From a virus, in IMG/VR virus record IMGVR_UViG_3300034072_002207, positions 1-37,566 of that record: a stretch of DNA of 37,566 bases; one strand, given 5' to 3'. A program made the translations under genes and the position numbers. Below, piece by piece: positions 3,686-27,063 of this stretch. How positions within the stretch are numbered: position 1 is the first letter of the stretch; every line of letters starts with the position of its first letter. The notes beneath the pieces are model-generated. The model saw only the letters and a list, made by a program, of their open reading frames with translations. It searched no databases and was not told where the DNA came from.

Positions 3686-3701
3686 AACCAAAATAAAAAT
3701 C

Positions 3702-11193: not shown

Positions 11194-11232
11194 ATTTCAT
11201 TTTGTGAAATAAAAGAAATAAAATTATATATT
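11194..11232 (+). repeat. Four-copy intergenic element, copy A (hairpin plus AAAGAAATAAAA box)
   Basis: Inverted repeat ATTTCA (11194-11199), loop TTTTG, TGAAAT (11205-11210), then AAAAGAAATAAAATTATATA. It lies 6 bases after the terL stop. TTG at 11202-11204 and an AT box at 11225-11232 give promoter-like spacing of 20. It is identical over about 30 bases to copy D at 27025, while copies B (13647) and C (22296) are diverged. Probably a phage-specific promoter or processing/binding site. Confidence 0.7.
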
Positions 11233-11247
11233 AGCATCCGATAGGTT

Positions 11248-11294
11248 TATATTTGGTTACTCGGTGCGTGCTGTAAGTACGTGCCGGGTTTTTT
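11248..11294 (+). promoter_or_regulatory. TAnnTTTG box followed by hairpin and T-run before gpW-like gene
   Basis: TATATTTG at 11248-11255 matches the Bacteroidota -7 box exactly, though no good TTG is seen at -33. It is followed by a stem pairing CTCGGTGCGT (11260-11269) with ACGTGCCGGG (11279-11288; three G-T pairs), then six T residues (11289-11294), 11 bases before the ATG at 11306. This resembles a rho-independent terminator or attenuator separating terminase from head genes. Confidence 0.4.
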
Positions 11295-11305
11295 CCCTAC
11301 TACCG

Positions 11306-11611
11306 ATGTCAGTTACCGAATGCACAATTACAGAATACTTAACTAGCAAGCAAACGCTAGCTGAACGAATAAGGGCTATTGAAGCGCTTATCGACACTGC
11401 CTTGTTATCTATGGCTGATTCCGTAAATGGAGCTGGCTTCAATATCAGTACTTATGAACTTGACGATGGTCAGGTTAAAATCAAAACTGGTTACAGGAGC
11501 ATAGATGACGTGTCACGTGGTATCGCAGCGCTCGAAACCATGAAAGTGAGATATGAAAATAGGTTGTACGGCCGTAGTGTAGTACTTAGAGATGTAAATT
11601 CATTTAGGTAA
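11306..11611 (+). CDS. gpW-like head-tail joining protein
   Basis: A 101-residue helical protein between large terminase and portal, exactly where lambda gpW sits. The C-terminal region with 'VKIKTGYRSIDDVSRGIAALETMKVRYENRLYG' follows the gpW plan of a short beta hairpin and then a helix. The N-terminal ~30 residues add an extra helix, making it longer than gpW (68). The frame extends upstream to 11264 across the hairpin, but the ATG at 11306 is preferred. It would bind the portal after packaging and prepare tail attachment. The stop overlaps the portal ATG by one base. Confidence 0.65.
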   Translation: MSVTECTITEYLTSKQTLAERIRAIEALIDTALLSMADSVNGAGFNISTYELDDGQVKIKTGYRSIDDVSRGIAALETMKVRYENRLYGRSVVLRDVNSFR

Positions 11612-13254
11612 TGGCGTTTTGGGATAGATTTTTTGGTAAACCTAACCTTGAACTGGACCATAGCAATGGTCCAGGTGTTCCAGTTGTTGAGGTTGAACAG
11701 CCTACGCATGATACGAAATCATTAGTTGCGGGTGGTGAATACGCTACAAGCGCTATATCTGTAACAAGCTACGTGTTCAATGGCGAAAAATCAGCTGGAG
11801 AATTGGGTAATCCAATTGACCTGCTTCCCGACTATCAATCATTACGGCTTCGTGCTTACGAATTTGATCTGACCGCTGATGTGGTTAAGATCATTACCGG
11901 TAAATTTATAGAGTGGGTTGTGGCCACTGGATTGAAAATGAGATCTGAGCCAAACGAGGATGTGTTAAACTTCGAAGGTATAAGAGAAAACCTAAAGGAT
12001 TTCAAAAATAATGTAGAAAGTTACTTTGCACTATGGGCTAGTGATAAATTGTCAGATTATTCGGGGATGATTGACTTTCACGACCATGCAAAAGATGCTT
12101 TCAAAACCTCTTTTCTAGGTGGTGACTGTTTGGTGGTTTTACGGGTTGACGACAATTATAACCTTCGTGTGCAGGTGATCGATGGTCAGCATGTTTGTAC
12201 ACCATTATTGAGCAGTGATTTTATCTTAGAAGCGGAAGCGAGAGGTAATAAAATAAAGCATGGTATCGAGATCAATAAAAAGCGGGAGCATGTCGCTTAT
12301 TACGTGGTTACTGATGGAAACGATCCTTTTAATTCTCATGAAAGGATCGAGGCTAAAAGCAAGGCTACTGGCTTAACGATGGCTTGGATGGTTTATGGAA
12401 CTAAGCACCGTATTGATCATTTAAGGGGAGTATCTCAATTAACAGCTATACTTGAAAAAGTCAAAAAGATTGATCGTTATACCGAGGCATCTGTGTCAGC
12501 TGCTGAGGAACGAGCAAAAATACCATATACCATTGAACACAGCAGGTTCAGTGATGGTGAAAACCCCTTATTGAGCAGAACAAAAGTCCATACAGGCGCA
12601 GAAACAGCGGAAAGCAGTTATGCAAAAGGGGAAGCCTTAGCCGGAAACGTAGCCAAGACCACGGGTAAGACTGTCTGGAATATGCCAATTGATAGCAAAA
12701 TGAAGCCATTGGAAAGTAATTCAGAGATGAACTACGAACCATTTTTTAAAGCTGTTTTTGTTCAATTGTGTGCCAGTGTAAATTTACCTCCAGAAGTTGC
12801 TTTGCAGCAGTATAACTCAAACTACTCGGCATCAAGGGCGGCAACCAACGGATTTGCCTTTATTTTAGATATTAAAAGAAACGAATTAGCAAAATCATTC
12901 TATCATCCTATATACAAAGTTTGGCTTCACCTCCACATTCTAAAAAACAAAGTTTCAGCGGCCGGATACTTACCAGCTTTCCTGAATAAGAATAAGTACA
13001 TCACGTCAAGTTATGCAGTTGCCAAATTTGTTGGTAAACGTATACCGCACATAGATCCTAAAAAAGAGGCTGATGCGCTACGTAAAATGATAGGTGATCC
13101 AACTAAAGGTGAACTACCACTGATTACGCACGAAGATGCCACCGAACAGTTAGGAAACGGAGACTACTACGAGAACGTTAAGAAATTTAACCAGGAACTG
13201 GAAGAAACACCTCAATCAATAAAAGATGCAAGCAATTCCCAAAATAAAAAATAA
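11611..13254 (+). CDS. Portal protein, lambda GpB family
   Basis: A 547-residue protein forming the dodecameric ring through which DNA passes. Family traits: 'LRLRAYEFDLTADVVKIITGKFIEWVVATGLKMRSEP' early, 'DFHDHAKDAFKTSFLGGDCLVVLRVD', 'GVSQLTAILEKVKKIDRYTEASVSAAEERAKIPYTI', and 'LPPEVALQQYNSNYSASRAA', a hallmark of lambda-type portals. Length is close to GpB (533). It begins one base inside the gpW-like stop and overlaps the next gene by 29 bases. Confidence 0.93.
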   Translation: MAFWDRFFGKPNLELDHSNGPGVPVVEVEQPTHDTKSLVAGGEYATSAISVTSYVFNGEKSAGELGNPIDLLPDYQSLRLRAYEFDLTADVVKIITGKFIEWVVATGLKMRSEPNEDVLNFEGIRENLKDFKNNVESYFALWASDKLSDYSGMIDFHDHAKDAFKTSFLGGDCLVVLRVDDNYNLRVQVIDGQHVCTPLLSSDFILEAEARGNKIKHGIEINKKREHVAYYVVTDGNDPFNSHERIEAKSKATGLTMAWMVYGTKHRIDHLRGVSQLTAILEKVKKIDRYTEASVSAAEERAKIPYTIEHSRFSDGENPLLSRTKVHTGAETAESSYAKGEALAGNVAKTTGKTVWNMPIDSKMKPLESNSEMNYEPFFKAVFVQLCASVNLPPEVALQQYNSNYSASRAATNGFAFILDIKRNELAKSFYHPIYKVWLHLHILKNKVSAAGYLPAFLNKNKYITSSYAVAKFVGKRIPHIDPKKEADALRKMIGDPTKGELPLITHEDATEQLGNGDYYENVKKFNQELEETPQSIKDASNSQNKK

Positions 13255-13645
13255 AAACCTGCTTCATTCCCTGTTGCTTAAGGTTAGGGTTGGCACGGTG
13301 GTAAATGCTGGTGGTAATTATTATTATAATACTTCAGGTATAAATTCGGCTGTTACGGATGCCAATAACTGGTTTAAAATTTTTGGAGCAACATCTGGAG
13401 CCATAACACCTGTAGATAAAGTCGCCGGAGATATCACCGGTACAGATCCTGACTTTAGTATAGACCTGTCTTCTACGGCGGTGCCAGATTTCCCGGTAAT
13501 CTTTAAGGTTTACGTAGATATCAATGGTGACGATAATTATTTGCCTGTTGAACCGGTGGTTTATAATCCAGTTAGCAAGTTGTTGTCTGGTCTGAGTAGT
13601 CCAGTGGATTTTCCTGATCAGAAAATAAAAATATTTTTTCAATAA
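13226..13645 (+). CDS. Hypothetical virion-region protein, beta-rich
   Basis: A 139-residue protein between portal and head protease. After a basic N-terminus ('MQAIPKIKNKNLLHSLLLKV'), the rest is Gly/Asp/Asn/Thr-rich with beta-type alternation ('GDITGTDPDFSIDLSST', 'IFKVYVDINGDDNYLPVEPVVY'), like a small structural or decoration-type domain. It overlaps the portal gene by 29 bases in another frame, suggesting coupling. No known family recognised. It is the last gene before repeat copy B. Confidence 0.6.
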   Translation: MQAIPKIKNKNLLHSLLLKVRVGTVVNAGGNYYYNTSGINSAVTDANNWFKIFGATSGAITPVDKVAGDITGTDPDFSIDLSSTAVPDFPVIFKVYVDINGDDNYLPVEPVVYNPVSKLLSGLSSPVDFPDQKIKIFFQ

Positions 13646-13646
13646 T

Positions 13647-13691
13647 TTTTATTTCTAATTATGAAATAAAAGAAATAAAAATATATATTTG
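13647..13691 (+). repeat. Four-copy intergenic element, copy B, with a perfect TATATTTG box
   Basis: A 9-bp inverted repeat TTTTATTTC (13647-13655)/GAAATAAAA (13663-13671) with a 7-base loop is followed by GAAATAAAAATATATATTTG. The TATATTTG at 13684-13691 matches the Bacteroidota -7 box exactly. A -33 TTG is absent (TTA instead). It lies just after the stop at 13645 and 52 bases before the protease gene, so it may drive the capsid gene block. Confidence 0.65.
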
Positions 13692-13742
13692 TTTTAACGC
13701 TTAAAATCAAAGCCAAACACTATCTTATTTAACTGTAAATAA

Positions 13743-14999
13743 ATGAATTATTCTTTAGCAAGAGAGATTTATGGCAGAGAGCCGTGGGCTGTTGATGCAT
13801 CTACTTTCAGTGCGTTACGCTCTATGCTTAACGACATTAGGAGTGGTGTTCGCTTCCAAGCTAAAGATGATCGAAACAATGCGATTGCTTTAGTTAATGT
13901 TACTAATGCAACCAAGATTATCAATCGCACTTGGCAGTTAAGCGAAGATTATCAAGGTGACGACTTGGTTTATGTGATTAATCTAAACGGTGTGATCACA
14001 AAAGATGGTGGTGAAAGTACTTATGGCATGACATACTTGGCGGCTCAGATGCAAAATTTTGACTCTGATAGCCGTGTAAAAGGTGGTATAATTGTCGTTG
14101 ATAGTGGTGGCGGTTCAACTTCTGGTATGGAAGTTATGACACACGCAATAAGCACACTAAAAAAACCTTTGGTTACGCTAATTGAACGTGGTGGTATGGC
14201 AGCATCTGCCGCTTATGGTATTAGCGCAGCTACAAACTTCATTATTGCTGAAAGCGAACAATCGGTTGTCGGCAGTATCGGTACTATGGTATCATTTGCT
14301 GGAATTCCTAACGGGGAAAGAGATGGTGATAATGCCAAGAATTTTGCCGTTTATGCCACCAAGAGTACGCAAAAGAATAAAATGTGGGAAGAAGCAATCA
14401 ACAACAATAATGTTGAGTTGATAGTAAAAGAGCTTCTTGATCCAGTAAATGAGAAATTTCTATCAGATGTAAAATCTAGACGTCCGCAAGTGATAGAGTC
14501 GCAGTTGGATGGTTCTGTATATAATGCAGGGAAAGTGGTAGGAACGTTGGTGGATCAAATAGGAACATTTGAAGATGCGGTAAATAAGGTGATGGAGTTA
14601 TCAAAAACAAAACCATCCCCATCAAACAAGCAAAAATTAAAAACAAATAATACAGCTATGACAGCACAAGAGTTAAAATCACAGCATCCAGACGTTTATA
14701 ACGAAATCTTAGGTGCTGGCGTACAGCAAGGTATTGCGGCAGAGAAGGATCGTGTGGGTACCTGGATGGTCCACGCAAAAACTGATCTGGAAGCGGTGCA
14801 AAAAGGTATTGAAGGTGGGGGTAAAATTACTGCTACTGCTAGGGAAAATTTCTTAGCTAAACAAGCTTCTTTGCAACAATTAGAGCTTTTGAATAAAGAG
14901 AGCGCTAAAGATATCGATAGCCCTGAAGCTACTGGTAAAAAAGTTGAACTTAGTGAGGCAGATGCCTTCTATAAAGAAGTTTTGGAGGGAATTGACTAA
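13743..14999 (+). CDS. S49 family (SppA-like) prohead protease with C-terminal scaffold region, lambda C-like
   Basis: A 418-residue serine protease for capsid maturation. The ClpP/crotonase-type core spans about residues 70-290: 'VDSGGGSTSG' (120-128), the likely nucleophile S155 in 'GGMAASAAYG', and 'VVGSIGTM' (175-182). A Ser-Lys dyad is usual in S49; K207 or K211 is the likely lysine. After residue 300 the sequence becomes helical and Gln/Glu/Lys-rich, like the scaffold part of lambda C/Nu3. It is first in the block after repeat copy B and overlaps the decoration gene by one base. Confidence 0.88.
   Translation: MNYSLAREIYGREPWAVDASTFSALRSMLNDIRSGVRFQAKDDRNNAIALVNVTNATKIINRTWQLSEDYQGDDLVYVINLNGVITKDGGESTYGMTYLAAQMQNFDSDSRVKGGIIVVDSGGGSTSGMEVMTHAISTLKKPLVTLIERGGMAASAAYGISAATNFIIAESEQSVVGSIGTMVSFAGIPNGERDGDNAKNFAVYATKSTQKNKMWEEAINNNNVELIVKELLDPVNEKFLSDVKSRRPQVIESQLDGSVYNAGKVVGTLVDQIGTFEDAVNKVMELSKTKPSPSNKQKLKTNNTAMTAQELKSQHPDVYNEILGAGVQQGIAAEKDRVGTWMVHAKTDLEAVQKGIEGGGKITATARENFLAKQASLQQLELLNKESAKDIDSPEATGKKVELSEADAFYKEVLEGID
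14658..14999 (+). CDS. Possible nested in-frame scaffold protein (Nu3-like) inside the protease gene
   Basis: In frame with the S49 gene, the ATG at 14658 (residue 306, 'MTAQELKSQHPDVYNE') follows a Lys/Ser/Asn-rich linker and an A-rich stretch typical of Bacteroidota start sites. It would give a 113-residue helical, charged protein. In lambda, scaffold Nu3 is made from an internal start in gene C with the same layout. The start is a proposal; the fused copy within the protease certainly exists if the long ORF is expressed. Confidence 0.4.
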   Translation: MTAQELKSQHPDVYNEILGAGVQQGIAAEKDRVGTWMVHAKTDLEAVQKGIEGGGKITATARENFLAKQASLQQLELLNKESAKDIDSPEATGKKVELSEADAFYKEVLEGID

Positions 15000-15439
15000 T
15001 GGATATTACTCAAAGAAATACAACCCGTAACCAGTCTACTGCTGATTACGAGGTTAAAAAAATCTTCATTTTCGATAACAGGTTTACCGAAGGTGTATAT
15101 AAAAACAACTCAGGATCATCACTTACCTTGAAGCCTGGTATGTTAGCTGTTAGGGACACTGCAGTTGCGGGTGGTTTGCTTCCGGCGACAGCTGATAATT
15201 TAGAGGCTGTAATTGGTGTGGTTTCTGTTGATGGCGACTTGGTGTTGGCTAACAATGCTACCGCAAATATTAACATTTGCACTAAAGGTACTGTTGATGG
15301 AAATCGTTTGGTTTTACCTGCATCTGTAACACTTAATACCGTTCCTACAGATGCTGCCAAAACCTTGAGAGATATTTTAGAGGGCATCGGTTTGCATATC
15401 GATACTTCTGCAGTTGAAATGACAAAATTCGATAATTAA
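14999..15439 (+). CDS. Head decoration protein, lambda gpD-like
   Basis: A 146-residue beta-rich protein between protease and capsid genes, the place of lambda gpD. The pattern 'LTLKPGMLAVRDT', 'LEAVIGVVSVDGDLVLANNATANINICTKGTVDGNRLVLP' matches the small decoration fold: a beta-rich body with values given as 'initial content/baseline plus property'. It would trimerise on the expanded capsid and stabilise it. ATG overlaps the protease stop by one base. The assignment rests mainly on position and pattern. Confidence 0.72.
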   Translation: MDITQRNTTRNQSTADYEVKKIFIFDNRFTEGVYKNNSGSSLTLKPGMLAVRDTAVAGGLLPATADNLEAVIGVVSVDGDLVLANNATANINICTKGTVDGNRLVLPASVTLNTVPTDAAKTLRDILEGIGLHIDTSAVEMTKFDN

Positions 15440-15442
15440 AAG

Positions 15443-16510
15443 ATGGCAATTTCATTAACCCAACACAGAGCTGGTATCACCCAAACGGCAATTGCCAAGT
15501 TCTCTGACAGAAGCAAGCCAAAATCAGGATTGCTTTCTTTCTTCAAAAGTACGACTACGACTGCAAAGCAGGTGTCTATTGAAGTTCGTCGTAATGGCCG
15601 TAAAATATCGGTCGATGTGCAACGTTGTACGGATCCAGTACGTAATATCTTTTCTAAATCTAGTGAAAAGATTTTCGTACCACCATTCCATAGCGAAAGT
15701 TTTGACTTCACCGCTTGTGAGGCCTACAATCGTACATTTGGTTCCGGTAACACACCAAGCAAGTATGATGCTACTAGCATGGTATCAGATGCCGCTGAAA
15801 ACCTGATGGCTATCGAAGATAAGATCACACGTGCTAAAATCAAGCAGGTTGCTGATGTGTTGCAAACCGGTATTGTTACCATTAAAAATGGCGACAGCAT
15901 CGACTTCAAACGTAAAGCAGCGTCAATGAAAGTACTATCTGGTGGCGCCAAGTGGGATGCTACTTCAACCGCTGATCCTTTACAGGATTATTATGATGGT
16001 GCTGAATTTTTGAGAACTCAAGGCTTATCTTCGGGAACGGCAATCAACGCTATCCATGGAACAGCGGCAATGTCCAACTTGTTGGCAAACCCTAAAGTTC
16101 AGGCTTTACTTGATTTAAGAAACATCAAGCGTGGCGACATTGGAATGCCTCAATTTGATGGTGTTACAGGATTGGTTTTTCATGGCCAAATCGCCGCAAA
16201 AGATTATGTAATCAATCTTTGGACATTTGTTGATAGCTACGAAGATGCTTCAGGCAATGACGTGAAATACATTGCAACAAACAATGTAATCATGTTACCT
16301 GATGATTTCGAAGGTCAATTGGTACACGCTGGAGTACCTGCAGTGGTTAAAGATAGCGAAGGCAATGCTTTAATCGTTCCAAAAGCTGGAGAAATTGTGG
16401 TTCATGATGTTGTCGATCAGGTGAAACGAACTTGGGAGTTGCTTGCTGAAAGCGCACCATTGGCTATTCCAGTTTCAATTGATAGAATTTACACTATTCA
16501 AACTGCATAA
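15443..16510 (+). CDS. Major capsid protein, lambda gpE family
   Basis: The 355-residue shell protein, similar in length to lambda gpE (341). Family-like features include the N-terminal 'FFKSTTTTAKQVSIEVRRNGRKI' and 'DVQRCTDPVRNIFSKSSEKIFVPP', 'AENLMAIEDKITRAKIKQVADVLQTG' in the spine, 'DYYDGAEFLRTQG' and a C-terminal 'LWTFVDSYEDASGNDVKYIATNNVIMLP'. It likely assembles with the upstream decoration protein. It starts 3 bases after that gene. Expected to be among the most abundant products. Confidence 0.92.
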   Translation: MAISLTQHRAGITQTAIAKFSDRSKPKSGLLSFFKSTTTTAKQVSIEVRRNGRKISVDVQRCTDPVRNIFSKSSEKIFVPPFHSESFDFTACEAYNRTFGSGNTPSKYDATSMVSDAAENLMAIEDKITRAKIKQVADVLQTGIVTIKNGDSIDFKRKAASMKVLSGGAKWDATSTADPLQDYYDGAEFLRTQGLSSGTAINAIHGTAAMSNLLANPKVQALLDLRNIKRGDIGMPQFDGVTGLVFHGQIAAKDYVINLWTFVDSYEDASGNDVKYIATNNVIMLPDDFEGQLVHAGVPAVVKDSEGNALIVPKAGEIVVHDVVDQVKRTWELLAESAPLAIPVSIDRIYTIQTA

Positions 16511-16512
16511 TC

Positions 16513-16779
16513 ATGGCAAAAAAATATATGGTTGTACCTATTGCGCTGTTAGGAGCTAACGGCGCAATCCTAAACCACGGTGCAGTGGTTACCAAAGAAG
16601 AGTTAACTGGTTCTGTTGAAACTCTGTTGGAAGAAGGTTTCATTGTTGAACATAAAGAAAGTAAAGCGGACAAAGATGCTGCTGAAGCTAAAGCCAAGGA
16701 GGAAGCTGACAAAGCTGCTTCGGAAAACAAAGATGTTAAAGGTCCTTTAGATAAACTAAAAGACAATAACAAAAAATAG
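16513..16779 (+). CDS. Small head-region protein with Lys/Ala/Glu-rich tail
   Basis: An 88-residue protein directly after the capsid gene. Residues 1-45 form a short beta-type domain ('YMVVPIALLGANGAILNHGAVVTKEEL'), and the remainder is a highly charged helix (KADKDAAEAKAKEEADKAA). The position matches lambda FI (packaging/head accessory) or the small proteins that follow capsid genes in many phages. The sequence alone does not settle which. The stop overlaps the next gene's GTG by one base. Confidence 0.6.
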   Translation: MAKKYMVVPIALLGANGAILNHGAVVTKEELTGSVETLLEEGFIVEHKESKADKDAAEAKAKEEADKAASENKDVKGPLDKLKDNNKK

Positions 16780-17156
16780 TGATAGGGAAACTTTTACAGC
16801 AAGCTAGAATAGATGCTCGGAAGATGGCAACCGCTGGCGGTTTTGAAGATGATATCATTTTAAAAACCAAGGATGGAAGCATCGAGCTTGCTGTAAAAGG
16901 ACTTACCACTTCTCACACCCAACAATACGACACAGAAGGTAATCCGGTTAACTCGAAGAGTGAACATATTACGGTTTCTGAACTTGATTTGATTGAGGGC
17001 GAATTTCCCTACAAAAGTACTAAGGGAAGTCCAAATTTAAACGGTTGCAAGGTTGTCAAAAAAGATAATACTGGTGAAACAAAAAACCATGTAATCAAAG
17101 AAACCATGCCAAATAAAACCACAGGATTAATTGTCTGCATTTTAGGAGATGCTTAA
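16779..17156 (+). CDS. Head completion/head-tail connector candidate
   Basis: A 125-residue protein starting at GTG that overlaps the previous stop (TAGTG). The fold looks beta-rich: 'DDIILKTKDGSIELAVKGLTTSHTQQYDTEGNPV', 'EHITVSELDLIEGEFPYKSTKG'. Located between the capsid-associated genes and the tail completion gene, it is in the position of lambda FII or another connector. No conserved motif confirms that. The alternative is a tail-attachment protein of unknown type. Confidence 0.6.
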   Translation: MIGKLLQQARIDARKMATAGGFEDDIILKTKDGSIELAVKGLTTSHTQQYDTEGNPVNSKSEHITVSELDLIEGEFPYKSTKGSPNLNGCKVVKKDNTGETKNHVIKETMPNKTTGLIVCILGDA

Positions 17157-17765
17157 ATGTCGCTTACCGCATTAATACATACGGCAATAGGCCAGCAAGG
17201 ATTTGAAAAGGTAAAAGATCGCATCGCCGAAATTTTATTAGTTGAGTTGACTAATCAAAAACAACTCCAAGAATTTGAAGAAGATATAGAGGTGTTCAAC
17301 GAGCGAATTGCGCCGATGGATGAAGCGGAAACCCTCTATTTTAACATACTACTGGATAGCGGAAGCTACAGCAACAAAAACCAGTTAGACCAGGAAGGCA
17401 ACACGATTTACTTTATTGATGTATACACCAGTGGTAAAGCTGGGGAGCAGGTAGGAACATCAGATAGCACGCAACGTAGGGATAAATTTTTAGGTATGGT
17501 GCGATATATTCTGAGTGATACCCGTTACAACATGCTCGGATTCGATTATGGGTTGATAGCAGGTAGCCAGGTGGAACGATTTTCTACCCTAGATCCTTCA
17601 CATAAAGAAGATAGTTCCTACACCAATTTTGGACGGCTTCAGTTTTCCGTAAGAATAGTGGAAAATCAAACCTTGTGGGACGGTGTGGAAGTGGTAGGTA
17701 ACAACACAAATGTAAAGCTTGACCTCACCGACAAGGGTTTTAAATACATATTTCAAAAAGATTAA
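17157..17765 (+). CDS. Tail completion/terminator-like protein
   Basis: A 202-residue protein directly upstream of the sheath. It contains 'NERIAPMDEAETLYFNILLDSGSYSNKNQLDQEGNTIYFIDVYTSG', 'RRDKFLGMVRYILSDTRYNMLGF' and 'LQFSVRIVENQTLWDGVEV', an alpha/beta layout typical of small tail-terminator (gpU/gp37-like) proteins that cap the tube and connect it to the head. Assigned by position and general fold. It ends 12 bases before the sheath start. Confidence 0.6.
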   Translation: MSLTALIHTAIGQQGFEKVKDRIAEILLVELTNQKQLQEFEEDIEVFNERIAPMDEAETLYFNILLDSGSYSNKNQLDQEGNTIYFIDVYTSGKAGEQVGTSDSTQRRDKFLGMVRYILSDTRYNMLGFDYGLIAGSQVERFSTLDPSHKEDSSYTNFGRLQFSVRIVENQTLWDGVEVVGNNTNVKLDLTDKGFKYIFQKD

Positions 17766-17777
17766 TTTTTATAAAAT

Positions 17778-19295
17778 ATGAGCATTTCAACGGCCATAGG
17801 CACCGAAAGACGAAGCAGGGTTTCGGGTTACAAAATTAAAAAGGGCAATTTCGATAACGAAACGCCAAACCTGCCACAACAGGTGGTGATATTGGCCGAA
17901 GCTAACAGTGCTAACCAATCGGCAATTACCACTGAAAAGAGAGAGGTTACCTCTGCTGATGAGGCTGGCCGCATTTATGGCTATGGTTCTCCAATCCACC
18001 AGATCATGCGTATTTTACGCCCACAGTCCGGAGATGGTATCGGTGGTATTCCCACCATCGTAATGCCACAACTTGAAGATGAGGATGCTACAGCCACTGA
18101 GATCGAATGGACTATTACGGGGACTGCAACCAAAAGCGTAACCCACAATTTGGTAATTGCTGGTCGTGGCTCGTTAGATTTTAAATCTTATGCTTTTAAT
18201 GTTGTTGTTGGTGATACGCCTACAATTATTGCAGGCAAAATTAAAGATACCATCAATGCGGTTTTAGGTTGTCCATTTACAGCAGCAAATACTGCAGGTG
18301 TTTTGACCGCTACTTCAAAATGGAAAAGTGCAACAGCTGCCGATCTGACTTTGCAGATACAAAATAATGGTGACGCCGGAGGTGTAACATACGCTTTGAC
18401 TGAAACTACCGCTGGAACTGGCGTTGCTGATATTGCAGATGCGCTGGCTCAGTTTGAAAATCCATGGTATACTACGGTGATCAATAGCTATGGAGTAGCA
18501 AAATTAGCAGATTTGGAAGCTTTTAATGGCTTTCCTGATGATGAAACGCCAACTGGGCGTTATGAAGGTCGGGTGTTCAAGCCTTTTATGGCCTTCTTTG
18601 GCAGTACACTGTCGTCAAAAGATGCGCTAATTGCTATTACCAATAACGCTGCAAGGGTAAATCAATGTACCAACGTGCTTTGTCCCGCTCCTGATAGTGC
18701 CGGTATGCCATACGAAGCTGCTTCTAACGTGGTGCGTTTGTTCTGCCGTGTGATGCAAGATTCGCCTGAACTTGATGTGAACGGAAAATCATATCCTGAT
18801 ATGCCAGTTCCCGCTAATGGTGTTATTGGCGATATGGCAGATTACAATAATCGTGACCTATTGTTAAAAAATGGTTGTTCTACGGTTATTTTGGCACAAG
18901 GCGCTTACCAAATCCAAGATCTTGTTACAACTTATCACCCAGAAGGAGAAGATCCGTTGCAGTACAGCTACTGCCGAAACCTCAACTTAGACTGGAATGT
19001 GAAGGATGGTTACAGTATTTTGGAAAATTTGAACGTAAAAGACCATGTGTTGGTTCGTGACAATCAGACAACCAATGTGCCAAAAGCGATCAAGCCTAAA
19101 GAATGGAAAGGATTGTTGTTCCAATACTTTGATGATCTGGCAGCTAAAGCGTTGATCAACGATGCTGATTTCAGTAAGGCTTCATTAAACGTACAGATTT
19201 CAACGGTAAATCCTAACCGCTTTGAAACGTTCTTCCGCTACCGTAGAACAGGCATTGCCCGTATCGAAAGTACTGATGTGGAGGCTGGATTTTAA
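17778..19295 (+). CDS. Contractile tail sheath protein
   Basis: A 505-residue sheath protein, which makes this phage a myovirus. The N-terminal domain handles assembly ('SRVSGYKIKKGNFDNETPNLPQQVVILAEAN'). The middle inserts a beta domain of about residues 100-225 ('TKSVTHNLVIAGRGSLDFKSYAFNVVVG'), and the C-terminal half carries the conserved sheath core, with 'WYTTVINSYG', 'DALIAITNNAARVNQCTNVLCPAP', 'NNRDLLLKNGCSTVILAQG' and the ending 'RYRRTGIARIESTDVEAGF'. Mu gpL is of similar size (495). Confidence 0.9.
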   Translation: MSISTAIGTERRSRVSGYKIKKGNFDNETPNLPQQVVILAEANSANQSAITTEKREVTSADEAGRIYGYGSPIHQIMRILRPQSGDGIGGIPTIVMPQLEDEDATATEIEWTITGTATKSVTHNLVIAGRGSLDFKSYAFNVVVGDTPTIIAGKIKDTINAVLGCPFTAANTAGVLTATSKWKSATAADLTLQIQNNGDAGGVTYALTETTAGTGVADIADALAQFENPWYTTVINSYGVAKLADLEAFNGFPDDETPTGRYEGRVFKPFMAFFGSTLSSKDALIAITNNAARVNQCTNVLCPAPDSAGMPYEAASNVVRLFCRVMQDSPELDVNGKSYPDMPVPANGVIGDMADYNNRDLLLKNGCSTVILAQGAYQIQDLVTTYHPEGEDPLQYSYCRNLNLDWNVKDGYSILENLNVKDHVLVRDNQTTNVPKAIKPKEWKGLLFQYFDDLAAKALINDADFSKASLNVQISTVNPNRFETFFRYRRTGIARIESTDVEAGF

Positions 19296-19329
19296 TTAAC
19301 TGATTTAAGAATTTTAATATAATAAGAAA

Positions 19330-19737: not shown

Positions 19738-19750
19738 TTATTCAAACTTA

Positions 19751-19774
19751 AGAGCCACTTCGGTGGCTTTTTTT
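19751..19774 (+). terminator. Rho-independent terminator between tube and tail chaperone
   Basis: Stem AGCCAC (19753-19758), UUCG tetraloop, GTGGCT (19763-19768), then a T-run to 19774. It is the only GC-rich hairpin with a T-run inside the tail region and lies 13 bases after the tube stop. Partial termination would reduce transcription of the chaperone and tape measure relative to sheath and tube. Confidence 0.85.
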
Positions 19775-19786
19775 AACTAACAAAAA

Positions 19787-20203
19787 ATGGACAAGTATAA
19801 AGTATCAGAAGATGTAGCAGTACAGGAAGTACTCGAATTTGTAAGCAAGTTTAACCGAAAAGTTAAGGACACCGATAAGGTGTTGGATCTCTATCCAGAC
19901 GTTGTTGAAGCCGTTAGACTTGGTAATTTTGATTTGACTTCTAGAGAACAACCTCAGCTAAAATTGATTGATCCCATAAAAAACACAGATGGTGATGTTG
20001 TGCTAGAAACGGTTAGTTTTAGAACTAGAATGAAACCAAGCGATCACAGAAGAGTTTCCAAAGGGATTGATGTTGCTAAGGAACAATTGGTATTTGGTCA
20101 TAGATGCGTAGCGTTTGTTATAGATCAGGAAGTTGCAATGTTAGATAAATTTAGCAAGGACGACTACAGTGTAATAGATCAATTCTCTTCGCTTTTTATC
20201 TAG
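19787..20203 (+). CDS. Tail assembly chaperone (short, G-like form)
   Basis: A 138-residue protein between tube and tape measure, the standard position of the tail chaperone that coats the tape measure during tail building. The sequence is helical and acidic/basic mixed ('DVAVQEVLEFVSKFNRKVKDTDKVLDLYPDVVEAVRLGNFDLTSREQPQLKLI', ending 'DEFSSLFI'-like 'DQFSSLFI'). Its last codons contain a T5 run (CTTTTTATC at 20192-20200) just before TAG. A second ORF in the -1 frame continues from there (next entry), as expected of a chaperone pair made by frameshifting. Confidence 0.8.
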   Translation: MDKYKVSEDVAVQEVLEFVSKFNRKVKDTDKVLDLYPDVVEAVRLGNFDLTSREQPQLKLIDPIKNTDGDVVLETVSFRTRMKPSDHRRVSKGIDVAKEQLVFGHRCVAFVIDQEVAMLDKFSKDDYSVIDQFSSLFI

Positions 20204-20382
20204 GCTGGTGTAGTACCATTGACAATGTTCTGGTAACACTGTCAAGAAACTTTGATTGGGCCAGCCCACAAGTCTTAGAAGATTTATTTATTGATGATCT
20301 CGATAACTTTGGTCTGCTATACTGGTATGAAGATGTCAGCCAGCAGCATAAGGAAATGGAGGCAAAATACGGAAAGAAATAA
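20197..20382 (+). CDS. Tail chaperone -1 frameshift extension (GT-like)
   Basis: In the -1 frame relative to the chaperone, the reading frame is open from 20155 to the TAA at 20380-20382. It has no ATG, GTG or TTG before 20356, so it cannot easily be started alone. A slip at the T5 run (about 20193-20197) would join 137 residues of the chaperone to 61 residues that include 'NFDWASPQVLEDL' and 'WYEDVSQQHKEMEAKYGKK', giving a 198-residue fusion. Phages including Mu and lambda make such G/GT pairs by programmed frameshift. The tape-measure ATG overlaps its stop by one base. Confidence 0.72.
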   Translation, partial: YLGWCSTIDNVLVTLSRNFDWASPQVLEDLFIDDLDNFGLLYWYEDVSQQHKEMEAKYGKK

Positions 20383-22295
20383 TGCCAGCATCAGCAGCTA
20401 TGAGTGTAGCCACAAAATTTACCGCTATTGATAGGGTAAGTGATATTGTTAAACGAATGACACGTAACGTGCGTTCGTTTGGTAGTGCTACAAGTTCCAT
20501 AATCTCAAGAAGCAATAAATGGTTTAACAAGCTTACCCCATCTATCAGCGAAGCCGGAAGGCAAATGCTTGATTATGCGAAGTCTGCTGCGGTTGCCGGT
20601 GGAATTATTGCCGGGATTTCGTTTTCCGCAAAAGCGGTTGTAGATTACGAAAAGGCAACAGCATCCTTTCGAACGATTGTATCGGACCTTACTAATAAAG
20701 ATTTTGCTAAATACAAGGCGGAGGTAGGCAATATTGCTAAGGCTACCGGTGCAAGCAGTATCGAGGTTGTGCAATCCTTTGAAAAAATTGCAGGATTAAA
20801 TGCAAAATTTGCTGAAACGGCCTCTGGTATTGGCGCTGTCTCTAAGGCTGCAGTTATATTGTCAAGAGCTAGTGGTGATGAGCTTGGAACAAGCGCTGAA
20901 AATCTGGTAGGCATCATGAACCAATTCAGTTTGGGTGCTGATCAAGCAAATAGAACAATAAATGTATTGGCTGCTGGTCAAGCTGTAGGTGCCGCATCTA
21001 TATCTCAAACATCTGAGGCTTTTAAAAACTTTGGTTCTGTAGCCAGTAGCGCAAATATGACTATGGAGCAATCTGTTGGTTTGATTCAAACGGTTGCAAA
21101 ATTTTCAATATTTGGAGCAGAAGCAGGTACTAAACTTAGGGGTGTTACACTTAAACTTCAAGAAGCACAAGCTGGTTATGGAAGTGGACAATTCAAAATA
21201 AGTGATGCACTAGCAGATGTCAATAGAAAATTAAAGACTTTAACGTCGGCAAAAGCTAAAGATGCTTTGATGAGTAAGGTGTTTGGTGCTGAAAATGTTT
21301 CGGTTGGAAGAATACTTTTAAGCAATGTACCTTTGTTTGAGTCATTCACGAAAGGTGTTACAGGTACTAGTGAAGCAGCTAAGGCCGCTGGTATTAACAA
21401 TGAAACATTATCGCAAAAACTATCTGATTTACAAAGTAAGTGGGTGACTTTGGTAACAACATCTGATCAAGCCGGTTCAAGCTTAACTGGCGCAAAAAAC
21501 GCCATTGGGTTTTTAATAGACAATATGGAGCGGATAATAGATGTTGGTAGTAAGGTGCTATTGTTTTTTGGTGTTTGGAAAGGTTTGATTTGGGCTAACA
21601 CGATGTTAACTTGGGGATACAATGTTGCAATCGGAGTAATGGGGGCGCTTTCCAAAACAGCTTCAGTTGGTATAGGGCAAAGCAATATTGCTTTAAAGGC
21701 CTACCAGGTGACTAGTAAGTTAGCTGCTGGAGCTCAGTGGCTATGGAACGCCGCTATGAACGCTAATCCAATAGGCCTAATTATTACAGGTGTTGCGTTA
21801 TTGATAGGATTAATAGTTGTAGTGGTAAAGAAATGGGATGAGTGGGGCGCAGCTTTGTCAATATTCATGGGGCCGTTAGGTTTTGTAATCAGCTTGATTC
21901 AATCATTTAGGCGAAACTGGGATATGATTACCAAGGCATTTAAAGAAGGTGGTGTACTGGCTGGGCTGAAAGCAATAGGCAAAACTATTTTGGATGCGGT
22001 GTTGCAGCCGTTCCAACAACTGTTGTCAATAATTGCAAAAGTTACAGGTTTTAAATGGGCTGAAAATGCAGCTGCTGGATTGAATAAGTTTAGGGCTGAA
22101 ATGGGCGTGAATATGGAAGCTAAACCTGCACTTGGTACCCCACAGCAGAAAGCTGAGGAATTGAAGTCACAAAATCCACAAACGAATACCTTGAATGTGA
22201 ATTTCAATGATCCGAATAAACGTGTTAAATCTACCGAAATGAAAGGTCCGTTACCTATTCCTGTTAAGGTTTCAAATACTTGGAACGGTAGGTAA
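20382..22295 (+). CDS. Tail tape measure protein
   Basis: A 637-residue, mostly helical protein setting tail length. It shows the N-terminal amphipathic region ('VSDIVKRMTRNVRSFGSATSSIISRSNKWFN'), the conserved tape-measure core ('DYEKATASFRTIVSDLTN', 'ATGASSIEVVQSFEKIAGLNA', 'ALADVNRKLKTL'), and three hydrophobic clusters (about residues 70-90, 385-425 and 460-510) that may insert in membranes during DNA ejection. At 0.15 nm per helical residue the tail should be near 95 nm. Starts on a one-base overlap with the chaperone extension. Repeat copy C begins one base after its stop. Confidence 0.9.
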   Translation: MPASAAMSVATKFTAIDRVSDIVKRMTRNVRSFGSATSSIISRSNKWFNKLTPSISEAGRQMLDYAKSAAVAGGIIAGISFSAKAVVDYEKATASFRTIVSDLTNKDFAKYKAEVGNIAKATGASSIEVVQSFEKIAGLNAKFAETASGIGAVSKAAVILSRASGDELGTSAENLVGIMNQFSLGADQANRTINVLAAGQAVGAASISQTSEAFKNFGSVASSANMTMEQSVGLIQTVAKFSIFGAEAGTKLRGVTLKLQEAQAGYGSGQFKISDALADVNRKLKTLTSAKAKDALMSKVFGAENVSVGRILLSNVPLFESFTKGVTGTSEAAKAAGINNETLSQKLSDLQSKWVTLVTTSDQAGSSLTGAKNAIGFLIDNMERIIDVGSKVLLFFGVWKGLIWANTMLTWGYNVAIGVMGALSKTASVGIGQSNIALKAYQVTSKLAAGAQWLWNAAMNANPIGLIITGVALLIGLIVVVVKKWDEWGAALSIFMGPLGFVISLIQSFRRNWDMITKAFKEGGVLAGLKAIGKTILDAVLQPFQQLLSIIAKVTGFKWAENAAAGLNKFRAEMGVNMEAKPALGTPQQKAEELKSQNPQTNTLNVNFNDPNKRVKSTEMKGPLPIPVKVSNTWNGR

Positions 22296-22330
22296 ATTTC
22301 ACTAAATGAAATTAAAGAAATAAAAAATTT
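22296..22330 (+). repeat. Four-copy intergenic element, copy C
   Basis: ATTTCA (22296-22301), loop CTAAA, TGAAAT (22307-22312), then TAAAGAAATAAAAAATTT. It lies directly after the tape measure stop and ends about 6 bases before the next ATG (22337). Its AT box is too close to the ATG for a normal promoter, so for this copy an RNA-level or protein-binding role is more likely, or transcripts begin leaderless. Confidence 0.6.
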
Positions 22331-22336
22331 AATCGT

Positions 22337-22816
22337 ATGTTTGATACCAAGGATGTTCTGATTTATGAAAGTGGTAACGGGGGAGATATCTCTATAAGCG
22401 GAAATGATATCGCACTAACAGAACAGCTGTTTCAGCAAATTTATTTGAGGCTTTTTGGCGGCAATGTTGAAGCAGTAACCAAAGGTAATGAACCAGCTGG
22501 AGAAGTAAGAAATGATTGGTGGGGAAACTCGCTTTTCTTTTCCCAGGATCAAGGTAAACAGTTTAATTCCGTTACAGAAAAAACACTGAACGAAACAGCC
22601 TTGAACAGTGCCGGAAGGTTGAAGATTTTAACCGCTGTTGAACGTGACCTTTCAGGGATGGAGCAGTGGGCAAGTACGACGGTTGACGTGTTGATTGCTA
22701 GCGCTAACAAGGTTGTGATTGTAGTGCAACTTAGTCAGCCAAACCAAACTACCAGTACACTAAACATTATTTGGGATAGCCTTAAAAAGCAAGTGGTATT
22801 AGAATACAATATTTAG
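22337..22816 (+). CDS. Baseplate protein, Mu gp46-like
   Basis: A 159-residue protein. Its 'GEVRNDWWGNSLFF' and following 'TALNSAGRLKILTAVERDLSGMEQWA' fit the gp46-type baseplate family ('WWGD' box with a GpW/gp25-like alpha-beta core). It would sit at the sheath-proximal end of the baseplate and help start sheath assembly. Adjacent to the baseplate J-like gene with no gap, as in Mu (46-47). Confidence 0.72.
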   Translation: MFDTKDVLIYESGNGGDISISGNDIALTEQLFQQIYLRLFGGNVEAVTKGNEPAGEVRNDWWGNSLFFSQDQGKQFNSVTEKTLNETALNSAGRLKILTAVERDLSGMEQWASTTVDVLIASANKVVIVVQLSQPNQTTSTLNIIWDSLKKQVVLEYNI

Positions 22817-23992
22817 ATGAAACCCATACCTTCTTTAGTTGAGCTGCAAAACAGATTGAGCGCTGATATCCAGGCAAAGCTGGGTATTGTTGACGTTGGT
22901 ATGAAGCAGGTGATTGACGCCATGTCGGCCACATTGGCTGGCGAACTCAAGTTGGCCTATCTTTATTTGCAGGATATCCAAAACAACACCTTTCCGGATA
23001 CCGCTGATCTATCTGTGGATGGCGGCGAACTTAACCGTATCGGACAGATCCAACTTAACAGGCAACCTAGACCGGCAACAAGTGGCATTTACTTGGTTTC
23101 GGTAAATGGCGTAGCTGGCAGTGTGCTTAGTGCCGGCTTGACATTCAAAAGCAATAGCGATAGTAAAAGCCCTGGCAATTTATACATTCTGGAGCAAGAT
23201 TATATTTTAACGGGTACAGACGATGAGATTACCTTGCGGAGTTTGGAAGCTGGCCCATCGTATGCCTTAGAAGCAACTAATACTTTCACTGCTACCGAGC
23301 CGCTTATTGGTGTTGATCAGATTGCAACGATTGTGAGTGTAACAACCGCACCAACTGCTGCAGAAAGCACCGAACTTTACCGAAAAAACATTATTGATGC
23401 TATACAGTTAGAGCCTCAAGGTGGAAGCCGTACAGACTACCGGTTGTGGGCAGCTGATGCCCAGGGGGTTGAAAGGGTTTTTCCGTATGTGAAGGTTGGT
23501 GAAGCAGGTACGATGCAGATATTTGTCGAAGCTACTGTTAGCGATAGTATCGACAGTAATGGTACGCCTAGCAATGCCATCATTGATGCTGTGGAGGATG
23601 TAATTTTATTTGATCCGGACATTACGCTTCAAACAAATCAGCGTGGTCGCTTACCAGCAACCGTTGTACTTGAAGTTTTGCCAGTTGTCACGAGGCCAGT
23701 TGATGTACAGATCATCGGATTGCAGACGGACACTGCTGCTGTAAGAGCGGCAATTAGGACTAATTTAATTGACTTTCTATTTAACGTACGGCCATACATT
23801 GCGGGGGCTGACTTGCCACGTGACAAGAATGATATTTTAACTGCCGTGAAAGCGCAAGCCGTGGTAAGTGATACCGTTGGTAACGCCAACACTTTTACAG
23901 ATTTTAAAATATTTGTAGACGGTGTTGAAGTAAATCTATACACCTTCTCTTTTGGCAATATCCCTTACCTACGTAATGTAACTTATAGCTAA
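22817..23992 (+). CDS. Baseplate J-like protein (Mu gp47)
   Basis: A 391-residue baseplate wedge protein. Family signs: 'LVELQNRLSADIQAKL' at the N-terminus, 'DLSVDGGELNRIGQIQLNRQPRPATSGIYLVSVNG', then 'AESTELYRKNIIDAIQLEPQGGSRTDYRLWAADAQGVERVFPY' and the C-terminal 'FRIFVDGVEVN'-type strand. These are characteristic of baseplate J proteins. Forms the wedges around the hub. It overlaps the next gene by one base. Confidence 0.88.
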   Translation: MKPIPSLVELQNRLSADIQAKLGIVDVGMKQVIDAMSATLAGELKLAYLYLQDIQNNTFPDTADLSVDGGELNRIGQIQLNRQPRPATSGIYLVSVNGVAGSVLSAGLTFKSNSDSKSPGNLYILEQDYILTGTDDEITLRSLEAGPSYALEATNTFTATEPLIGVDQIATIVSVTTAPTAAESTELYRKNIIDAIQLEPQGGSRTDYRLWAADAQGVERVFPYVKVGEAGTMQIFVEATVSDSIDSNGTPSNAIIDAVEDVILFDPDITLQTNQRGRLPATVVLEVLPVVTRPVDVQIIGLQTDTAAVRAAIRTNLIDFLFNVRPYIAGADLPRDKNDILTAVKAQAVVSDTVGNANTFTDFKIFVDGVEVNLYTFSFGNIPYLRNVTYS

Positions 23993-24780
23993 TGTATCAG
24001 GTAAGTAATAATAGCACCCAGCATGGACTGAAAACCCCTCACGGTTTTAGAACACCTCACCGTTTTCCTGTAAAGTCTGGAACGAAGGAAGAGCTGATGG
24101 CCTTAGCCAACCAGTTGTACCCTACGGGTAGGGTTTGGAACTTATCGGAGCAAAGCAAGTTTAATGCATTACATGCGGCAATCAATCTTAGTATTCTGCG
24201 GTTGACTGCTGACGCTTATTCGTTGATTGATGGATCCTTTCCGGATAACAATAATTTTACTGTTGACGATGCTACATTATGGGAATATAGGTTAGGACTT
24301 TTGGCAGGTACTTTGACTTTGGAGCAAAGAAAAGCCAATATCTTAAGAAAGATGGCTTTCCCGCAGAATGTCAAAGCTAGGCAAAGCGTGCCGTACATTG
24401 AAAGCCAGTTGCAGCAATCTGGGTTTAACGTTAGGCTGTACGAAAACATATTCTACGATGTTGACGGTAACCTGTACCGCAAAGAGCCTGCTGATATTTT
24501 AAGCTTGCAAACGGGTACGGTGCAGCATGGTGGTTCAACTCAACATGGAGCAGGTGCGCAACATGGCGGTGGAAACACTGAGGTCGTAGCAAATGAGGCA
24601 TTTGAAGAAAACTACAATATTGGAGGTGCTGATAATTTATATGCAACCTTTTTTATCGCCGGCAATCAGCTCAGCGAAATAGCAACGGTAGAAAAGAGCC
24701 GTGAAAGAGAGTTTAGGGAATTGATTTTGAAACTGAAACCTGCGCATACTGTAGCGTTTCTTTTTGTTAACTACATATAG
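23992..24780 (+). CDS. Mu gp48-like (DUF2313-type) baseplate/tail protein with His-Gly repeats
   Basis: A 262-residue protein following baseplate J as in Mu (gp48). The family core is 'LMALANQLYPTGRVWN', 'FNALHAAINLSILRLTADAYSLIDGSFPD' and 'EYRLGLLAG...QRKANILRKMAFPQNVKARQSVPYIESQLQQSGF'. Odd extras are two His-rich tracts: TQHGLKTPHGFRTPHRFP near residues 9-26, and VQHGGSTQHGAGAQHGGG near 178-195. These could bind metal or be a trimer/fibre contact. It is followed by two fibre-like genes. Confidence 0.78.
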   Translation: MYQVSNNSTQHGLKTPHGFRTPHRFPVKSGTKEELMALANQLYPTGRVWNLSEQSKFNALHAAINLSILRLTADAYSLIDGSFPDNNNFTVDDATLWEYRLGLLAGTLTLEQRKANILRKMAFPQNVKARQSVPYIESQLQQSGFNVRLYENIFYDVDGNLYRKEPADILSLQTGTVQHGGSTQHGAGAQHGGGNTEVVANEAFEENYNIGGADNLYATFFIAGNQLSEIATVEKSREREFRELILKLKPAHTVAFLFVNYI

Positions 24781-24782
24781 CT

Positions 24783-25844
24783 ATGGCTACTAATAAGAAA
24801 TTTGCCACAAATATTGATCTTGCTGATCCTACAAACTATCCGGACGGCAGGATCAAGGATAATACAGGTGTTGGTGACGGCACACCCGTTAATAGACTTC
24901 TTTATTCTGATCTGCACGAATATTTTGCCAAGCTAATGCGACTGGCAAATATTGCCTATAACGGGTTGCCAGATAATGAGGCAAACGGTTATCAATTGGT
25001 GGCAGCGGCAATTGCCTTGGCTGGTAAGAATGATTTTCTCTATAACTTAAACAATGTTTCTGGAGTAGTAACTATCGATACCGATTTGTCTATCGTCAAA
25101 TCGGGGGAAATATTGACGGCTAAAGCAGCATTCAATTTTTCGGCACAAACACTGATCAAAGGAACGGCAGCAACCACCTATGGGATAACTGTGACAAGCG
25201 ATTTCAAATCTGATGATTACGTAATGATCATCAAATCAGGTTTAAATTTTACCTTAGTACGCTTGGCAGATGGAAATAATGTAGATGCCCTGGTAGCTGA
25301 ATACAATTATTTAAAGGCCGCAACTACGGCTGAGGAATTCGCTGGAACTAGCACAACAAAAGCTACCACACCGTATAGTAATCAATTGGCATTTGCCCGA
25401 AGGGTGATTGGGCTAGATAGCGGATTGTTTTTGGCAACGACATTGCGTAATGGGTTACTGTCAAAAGAGGATAAGGCAATTATTGACAGCTTTGTCGATC
25501 CGGTTAAAAACAGGGGCTGGTTCAGTAGTGTTTCTCCAGGTACCGGAAGTGTTGGTACTACACTTCCATCTAGCGGAGATGTAGTTAGTGCGGTGATTGA
25601 CCAGGTGCAATATTCGCCAAACAACTCTTCTGTAACTATCCTGGTAACTATGGAGAATGCCATGGCAAATCTCAATTATTTTGTCCGTGCATCTGTGCAG
25701 TCTGAAGGTACGATGGAGGTGGACAATGATATCGCCGGAAATGTTTTTAAGCCTGTTAGCACAACTCAGTTCAGGTGGTCAATCACAGATAAATTAGATG
25801 GAGCGAAAAGTTTAAAAATACATTTTGAGGCAGTGCAAATATGA
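24783..25844 (+). CDS. Tail fibre-like structural protein 1
   Basis: A 353-residue protein with a conserved N-terminal head (about residues 18-80: 'PDGRIKDNTGVGDGTPVNRLLYSDLHEYFAKLMRLANIAYNG', 'DNEANGYQLV') shared with the next protein. A beta-rich shaft follows, and a segment 'ATTAEEFAGTSTTKATTPYSNQLAFARRV' like the repeat found in many phage fibres. Likely attaches to the baseplate by the shared head domain. It overlaps the next gene by 4 bases (ATGA). Confidence 0.72.
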   Translation: MATNKKFATNIDLADPTNYPDGRIKDNTGVGDGTPVNRLLYSDLHEYFAKLMRLANIAYNGLPDNEANGYQLVAAAIALAGKNDFLYNLNNVSGVVTIDTDLSIVKSGEILTAKAAFNFSAQTLIKGTAATTYGITVTSDFKSDDYVMIIKSGLNFTLVRLADGNNVDALVAEYNYLKAATTAEEFAGTSTTKATTPYSNQLAFARRVIGLDSGLFLATTLRNGLLSKEDKAIIDSFVDPVKNRGWFSSVSPGTGSVGTTLPSSGDVVSAVIDQVQYSPNNSSVTILVTMENAMANLNYFVRASVQSEGTMEVDNDIAGNVFKPVSTTQFRWSITDKLDGAKSLKIHFEAVQI

Positions 25845-27019
25845 GGACCGTAAAAAATTTGCCAAATGGCATCCCAAAAAATACAGATTTAAGCAAATTT
25901 CCGGATAGCGGAATTATCAATGAAACAGAGGTAAGCGAAGGTACTCCCGTGGTAGAAGAAATATATGGGGATGTACTTTCCAATCTGTACAAGATTTTGC
26001 GCCTAACAAAGGTTGCTGCAAATGGCAACCAAGACAATGAGGTTAACGGGTATCAGCTTGTTGAAGCTTTAAGGAAATTTACCAATGACTTAAATGATTC
26101 CGAAAAGCAATTGAGCTTAACCGGCACCCAATTCTCCGTAAATGTTGACCTCAGCATTGTGCCCAACAAATACTTCTGCTTTGCAAGGGCGGTAGAAGAT
26201 TATGTGGGAACGACTACCTATACTTTTTTGGGAGCAAATGGTGATGCGTTGCCATTTTCAGCACCATTAGCATTTAAAAGCGGCGATTTGGTGCTACTTA
26301 TTATAGATACTGCGGGTGTAAGGGCATACGGTTTAGTTCCTGCCGCAACAAATAATGTTGTAAGCGAAGTTTATGCCCCGTTAGGATTGCCACTGGCATT
26401 TAATAACAGCAACAAACTTTGGTATCAGGAAGAGGGGATAATCATGAGTGATTCCCCAGAGGTTTACGACCTGCAGTCGGCGATACGTTTGGCTGCTGCA
26501 GATGGTACTTTGTTGGTGTATGAAATGATTTTGGTAGATGGATTTGTTTATTGTCTTGTTTATGTACCTGGTCCTCAAACTTACCGTATCTATCGTTTTG
26601 CCATAACAAACCTTGCTGCGCCTTCATTGGTTTCGATGTCCGGTGCAAGTTTTCCGACAGGGGTTGACAATAGGCCCAACATGTATAGCGACGGGACACT
26701 GCTCTATTTGAGCCATCAAACAGGAAACAGTGCAAATGCGTACAGCATAAGTAAATTTACTTTTAACCACACCACTGGGACACTCATATCAGCTGGTACC
26801 ATAACCCTGGATAATCAATTTGCCAATAGTACAAATTGCGTAGTTAAAAACGACAATTTGTTTGAATTTATTAATGGTCAACTTTACAGATATAACCTTA
26901 CTACGGGTGCAAGAACTAGCCTTGGTAATTATCCAGGAAACATCGGGCTGTTGTTTAACTATTTGGACAACATCTACTACTTGAGTGGTGAAGTTGCCAA
27001 AATCTGGAATCTACCCTGA
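25841..27019 (+). CDS. Tail fibre-like structural protein 2, propeller-like C-terminus
   Basis: A 392-residue protein whose first ~80 residues are a diverged copy of the previous protein's head ('FPDSGIINETEVSEGTPVVEEIYGDVLSNLYKILRLTKVAANGNQDNEVNGYQLVEAL'). The C-terminal half shows repeated Tyr/Gly-rich strands ('YEMILVDGFVYCLVYVPG', 'YSDGTLLYLSHQTG', 'VVKNDNLFEFINGQLYRYN', 'LDNIYYLSGEVAKIW') suggestive of a beta-propeller. It could be a receptor-binding fibre. Duplication with domain swapping is a typical host-range route (inference). Repeat copy D follows the stop. Confidence 0.68.
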   Translation: MRTVKNLPNGIPKNTDLSKFPDSGIINETEVSEGTPVVEEIYGDVLSNLYKILRLTKVAANGNQDNEVNGYQLVEALRKFTNDLNDSEKQLSLTGTQFSVNVDLSIVPNKYFCFARAVEDYVGTTTYTFLGANGDALPFSAPLAFKSGDLVLLIIDTAGVRAYGLVPAATNNVVSEVYAPLGLPLAFNNSNKLWYQEEGIIMSDSPEVYDLQSAIRLAAADGTLLVYEMILVDGFVYCLVYVPGPQTYRIYRFAITNLAAPSLVSMSGASFPTGVDNRPNMYSDGTLLYLSHQTGNSANAYSISKFTFNHTTGTLISAGTITLDNQFANSTNCVVKNDNLFEFINGQLYRYNLTTGARTSLGNYPGNIGLLFNYLDNIYYLSGEVAKIWNLP

Positions 27020-27024
27020 TTATT

Positions 27025-27063
27025 ATTTCATTTTGTGAAATAAAAGAAATAAAAGTATATTTA
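27025..27063 (+). repeat. Four-copy intergenic element, copy D, best promoter-like match
   Basis: ATTTCA (27025-27030), loop TTTTG (27031-27035), TGAAAT (27036-27041), then AAAAGAAATAAAAG and TATATTTA (27056-27063). TTG at 27033-27035, spacer of 20, and TATATTTA differ from the Bacteroidota consensus TTTG-N20-TAnnTTTG only at the last base. It lies 5 bases after the fibre-gene stop and 16 bases before ATG 27080. Near-identical to copy A. Confidence 0.7.

Follow-up and report, generated by a model that had tools for sequence, protein, structure and literature searches.

A conserved triad of half-sites at the late-region gene borders of a putative Bacteroidota myovirus, probably forming phage-activated late promoters

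Bacteroidota phages are abundant, and in the literature that we searched for their late promoters or late-gene switching we found no description. How such a phage might turn on its structural genes is a question raised by virus record IMGVR_UViG_3300034072_002207, the 37.6-kb stretch of DNA analysed here (hereafter the window), in which a first-pass annotation had noted an intergenic element dividing the late region into blocks and had proposed late promoters, activator sites or RNA processing as its role. The first part of the window carries genes for a sliding-clamp-like protein, RepO, a DnaC-like loader, an exonuclease, an HNH protein, terS and terL; these are followed by genes for a joiner-like protein, portal, protease, decoration, capsid, sheath, tape measure and baseplate wedges, and the end is made up of minor tail, hubs, endolysin, an Rz-like spanin and an integrase. 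The phage is probably a temperate Bacteroidota myovirus, and its nearest cultured relatives are Flavobacterium phage FCV-1 (Ficleduovirus) and Cellulophaga phage phiSM, with structural proteins that are mostly 30–64% identical to those of the window.

To define the element, we used the pattern ATTTC-N6-TGAAAT-N-AAAGAAATAAAA, which matched without mismatch at the first base of each of four copies, named A to D (Table 1), and nowhere else in the window; in 100 dinucleotide shuffles it gave 0 matches even with three mismatches permitted, and the number expected by chance was 0. Over 30 nt copy A is identical to copy D, as had been claimed, and the dyad of each copy begins 0–5 nt past the preceding stop codon (terL ends at 11188, the ORF starting at 13226 at 13645, the tape measure gene at 22295 and the ORF starting at 25841 at 27019). 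Behind each copy a new functional block does begin, namely joiner-like protein and portal (likely joiner start, ATG at 11306); protease, decoration, capsid and sheath; baseplate wedges; and minor tail and hub. The original description of four copies of a hairpin with an A-rich tail needed amendment, however: the dyad stands, but a fifth, degenerate copy brings the count to five, and the repeat is a triad, in which the inverted pair is joined by a third, direct half-site. The anatomy can be written rc(h)-N7-h-N4-h, where h is GAAAT in the window; with the dyad's first base numbered 0, the three 5-bp half-sites occupy positions 0–4 (inverted), 12–16 and 21–25, that is, one inverted and two direct, 9 bp apart. 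No Rfam family matched anywhere in the window.

Table 1. Positions in the window of the triads, their -7 boxes and neighbouring features.
Feature	Position	Strand	Remarks
p69, 69-aa basic helical protein	7378..7587	+	overlaps HNH start; candidate activator (putative function)
HNH protein gene	7584..8105	+	packaging-type neighbour of terS/terL; start overlaps p69 end
Fifth, degenerate copy, ATTTC-N7-AAAAT-N4-GAAAC	8111..8136	+	just past HNH gene, 5' of terS; without -7 box
Copy A triad, ATTTC-N7-GAAAT-N4-GAAAT	11194..11219	+	5 nt past terL stop; G001 ortholog 18531
Copy A -7 box region, TATATATTAG	11225..11234	+	offset 31/33; conserved in G001 as TATATTTC
Intrinsic terminator	11259..11294	+	between copy A and joiner gene, 40 nt past copy A
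Copy B triad	13651..13676	+	before protease/capsid block; G001 ortholog 20987
Copy B -7 box, TATATTTG	13684..13691	+	offset 33
Copy C triad	22296..22321	+	directly past tape-measure stop; G001 ortholog 29748
Copy C -7 box, TATGTTTG	22336..22343	+	offset 40; spans wedge1 start codon; identical in G001
Copy D triad	27025..27050	+	before minor tail/hub block; G001 ortholog 34469
Copy D -7 box, TATATTTA	27056..27063	+	offset 31; identical in G001

Conservation at the same gene borders in related phages, the absence of which was part of what the first-pass annotation would have taken as refutation, was found in IMGVR_UViG_2899651099_000001 (G001, 47 kb), whose structural proteins are mostly 60–89% identical to those of the window. 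Here the element is present at 5/5 orthologous borders, and the ortholog of the fifth copy, at 15439, is better preserved than the window copy itself. With a position weight matrix (PWM) built from the four window copies, the best five matches in G001 were exactly the five orthologous borders (25.8–32.4 bits), while the next match reached 18.7 bits and the best among 60 Markov-shuffled genomes 21.4 bits; outside the late-region borders, the PWM scan found no comparable element in either the window or G001. Between the two phages, all 60 half-site positions of copies A to D are identical (15 per copy), compared with 28/44 spacer positions and 34/104 positions in the stretch 44–69 nt downstream, a difference that marks a footprint of selection on the half-sites.

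Inspection of orthologous junctions in more distant phages revealed that the half-site sequence changes and the spacing does not. In L007 the register is kept with h = GAAAC, as read directly from the junctions (GTTTA..GAAAC..GAAAC at the terL border and GTTTC..GAAGC..GAAAC at the terS border). In L031, a distant phage also listed as G401 and with a terL only 24% identical, the exact triad TATTC-N7-GAATA-N4-GAATA stands directly past the HNH gene and a copy with one mismatch directly past terL; the strand bearing the former has no other exact triad in 43.6 kb, against 0.05 expected (P about 2e-4 for one 80-nt stretch). L131 carries TTTTC-N7-GAAAA-N4-GCAAA past its HNH gene, and L115 has a derivative retaining two of the three half-sites, GAAAC-N4-TATAC, three times, with two copies at the terL/joiner border and one at the protease border. 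Thus h differs between the window (GAAAT), L007 (GAAAC) and L031 (GAATA) in both dyad arms and in the third repeat, with fixed spacing. It was by eye, where a copy was expected, that the triads of L031 and L131 were first spotted; the cases with GAATA and GAAAC came from inspecting orthologous junctions, and a mechanical scan for repeated triads across all loci yielded no new convincing family beyond GAAAT. No comparable triad was present directly past the HNH gene of L032, a phage with HNH and without p69 (a small gene discussed below), and FCV-1 and phiSM have neither a copy of the element nor p69. Pattern matches in the bacterial genomes L005 and L006 were dismissed as chance, the one in L005 lying inside a metal-ATPase gene and neither genome having a repeat family, and among 395 Bacteroidota genomes screened there were no real relatives of the sheath or HNH protein. 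In L140, tandem palindromes (TGTTAC-N-GTAACA-N-TATCA, positions 5864–5942) stand just 5' of an HNH-like gene and share the N7/N4 geometry with one mismatch; no p69 was seen in this phage, and these may be unrelated operators.

Downstream of the triads of copies A to D lie boxes resembling TAnnTTTG, the flavobacterial sigma-A -7 consensus (PMC9723704). The fit is exact at B and C and near at A (TATATTAG) and D. On the triad numbering given above, the boxes of G001 are offset by 33 (A and B), 31 (D) and 41 nt (C), that of L007 by 30, those of L115 by 33, 34 and 40, and those of L031 and L131 by 41; across six phages, therefore, the box lies at 30–34 or at 40–41 nt, the longer offset occurring at copy C and in L115, L031 and L131. 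The two distances, about 32 or 41 nt from the start of the site, are roughly one helical turn apart. No -7 box was found at the fifth copy of the window, G001 and L007 or at the post-terL copy of L031, all of which have the half-sites. The upstream half of a Bacteroidota promoter fared differently: copies A and D of the window do show the TTG-N20 spacing previously pointed out, but it is conserved neither in G001 as a whole nor at copies B and C; this -33 fit looks coincidental. A -33 TTTG at N18–21 is present at window A and D and at G001 D, and absent at window B and C and at G001 A–C. The post-HNH copies of L031 and L131, for their part, have the full consensus promoter TTTG-N19-TATA[C/T]TTAG.

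Copy C had been regarded as puzzling because it leaves almost no room for a leader. This is partly answered by a perfect -7 box that, in the window and in G001 alike, spans the start codon: the box contains the ATG, and the 12-mer TCGTATGTTTGA at this start codon is identical in the two phages. Of the homologous wedge genes that lack the element, about 40 have their start one codon downstream or otherwise placed, and the box is missing from them. In flavobacteria the sigma-A box occupies -12 to -5, and leaderless transcripts make up only 5.5% of mRNAs (PMC9723704); transcription from copy C would accordingly start inside wedge1 and serve the genes behind it, and wedge1 itself would be translated from read-through mRNA.

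Of the roles proposed at first, that of phage-specific late promoters or activator sites is best supported, by the conserved borders, the -7 box and the absence of the element elsewhere in both genomes. We consider it probable that the copies are late promoters for host sigma-A polymerase, switched by a phage-encoded activator. Host RNA polymerase carrying its primary sigma factor would read the TAnnTTTG-type -7 box, at either of two distances from the triad; the triad, replacing the non-conserved -33 box, would be bound by a DNA-binding protein of the phage, which would switch on the blocks of structural genes once the middle phase is over. Against this model, transcription from promoter C would begin within the gene that it precedes, and promoter A would be followed by a terminator before its first gene; nor do this terminator, the fifth copy of the window, G001 and L007 and the post-terL copy of L031, which have no -7 box, fit a plain promoter model. 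The reduction to two half-sites in L115 and the discovery by eye of the L031 and L131 triads weigh on the same side.

The same evidence bears on other readings of the element. If it acted in late mRNA as a processing or stability hairpin, its dyad could pair in RNA and its place directly past stop codons would be apt, yet the predicted folds of eight copies are weak, with MFE values between -3.2 and -8.5 kcal/mol and z between -0.1 and -2.7, and a stable RNA hairpin was rejected. Moreover, in L007 and L031 the third half-site, which would be unpaired in such a hairpin, has changed together with both arms of the dyad, which favours DNA recognition; a DNA-binding protein site would account for this better than an RNA hairpin, and we regard the RNA reading, one of those put forward initially, as very improbable. 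The terminator past copy A could instead indicate loading sites for a Q-like antiterminator, which would board polymerase at the promoter and pass terminators. A similar hairpin with a T-run is found at the terL/joiner junction of G001, L007, L115 and L120; no terminator-like site was found within the intergenic stretch downstream of window copies B, C and D, however, and this role seems highly unlikely.

That the triads are operators through which a phage repressor controls late promoters, for lysogeny or timing, has more to recommend it: they overlap the -33/spacer region, the full consensus promoters past the HNH genes of L031 and L131 would need no activator, and those copies that have no -7 box could serve as operators alone. 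On the other side, the five sites lacking TTTG at -33 in the window and G001 would be weak promoters unless helped, and the copies are confined to late-region borders in both phages, so that we judge repression unlikely. The triad might also be the unusual -35 element of a phage-encoded alternative sigma factor, as the upstream element varies between lineages and the AT-rich downstream box stays. But the -7 box remains of the host sigma-A type, a dyad plus direct repeat suits a multimeric DNA-binding protein, and no sigma-like gene was found among the scanned window ORFs (the left end being missing from the window), making this quite unlikely. One LuxR/sigma-region-4-like gene is present in G001 (809–1405) and one in G401, related, among the phages tested, only to each other; a regulatory role of the G001 gene at the element is neither excluded nor supported. 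It belongs to about 7.5 kb that G001 has in addition at the left end, beyond the part matching window positions 1–1077, where the window seems to lack the end of the prophage; this extension also includes a CI-like regulator.

Turning back to a phage-encoded activator, to which the change of half-site sequence between phages itself points, the activating protein could be p69, whose gene directly precedes the HNH gene and, with it, the first copy. In an IMG/VR search, relatives of p69 were found only in G001, L131, L031 and L115, all of which have the element or its derivative. The non-structural genes common to these four phages and the window are RepO, p69 and HNH, with integrase in four of the five; since RepO, integrase and HNH are likewise present in most of these phages, p69 is not distinguished by co-occurrence alone. 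Position and co-occurrence together make p69 the lead, with a chance that we put somewhat short of even. Its predicted model has three helices at medium confidence (pLDDT 76), and structure searches returned no significant match to any known fold and no recognised DNA-binding fold. The HNH protein was dropped as a candidate regulator, being a nuclease-type protein whose gene adjoins terS.

Phage Mu has four late promoters (Plys, PI, PP and Pmom) served by one C protein, which binds upstream of -35 (PMC4461284). As in Mu, several scattered late promoters would here share one dyad-type site, presumably for an activator, whose candidate gene directly precedes the first of the late blocks; unlike in Mu, the triad includes a third half-site and overlaps the -33/spacer region of a promoter of Bacteroidota type. 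The scanned ORFs of the window (without the prophage left end) and those selected from G001 yielded no Mor/C homologue, and given also the different site position we do not claim membership in the Mu C family. Compared with Bacteroidota sigma-A (sigma-ABfr) promoters, TTTG-N-TAnnTTTG, the -7 box is shared (exact at B and C, deviating at A and D), but half-sites stand where the -33 TTTG is not conserved. In phages lambda and 21, the Q binding element lies at the late promoter; the element resembles it in that a phage factor would bind within a late promoter and, at copy A, in the terminator that follows, the scattered promoters and the lack of a terminator after B–D being unlike the Q systems. 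The late regions of FCV-1 and phiSM have the same structural gene order, without the element or p69. The fullest version of our proposal, an undescribed form of late control in Bacteroidota phages in which p69, with its unrecognised fold, binds an asymmetric triad whose half-sites are re-specified between lineages at fixed geometry, with two -7 distances and one promoter whose -7 box contains a start codon, is a tentative and rather doubtful one. A conserved, re-specified triad and a short candidate activator lend themselves to a direct test with one small protein, a 26-bp site and the half-sites of three lineages, and the element could supply inducible promoters and mark late operons in uncultured phages.

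Several further observations concern the same phages. phiSM (L009) has a repeated promoter-like element of its own, TTATTGARATAATTTRCTATATTTG, which flanks the terL terminator on both sides (3588–3612 and 3697–3721), and the L115 motif likewise stands on both sides of its terL terminator. Between HNH and terS of the window, a non-coding block at 8220–8282 (AAGGTACTGTG...TGCAATACGTTGCGCACCCC) is strongly conserved in the window, G001, L007 and L115, and its position and inverted repeat mark it as a good candidate cos packaging site. Just 5' of terS, at 8300–8430, several GTTATA/TATAACA repeats surround a promoter-like TATATATTG; they also occur in G001 and partly in L115, and look like operators of another regulator. 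Finally, beside the integrase, two small overlapping ORFs on the minus strand (34442–34941), one of them HicB-like (phrog_497), possibly form a toxin-antitoxin pair.
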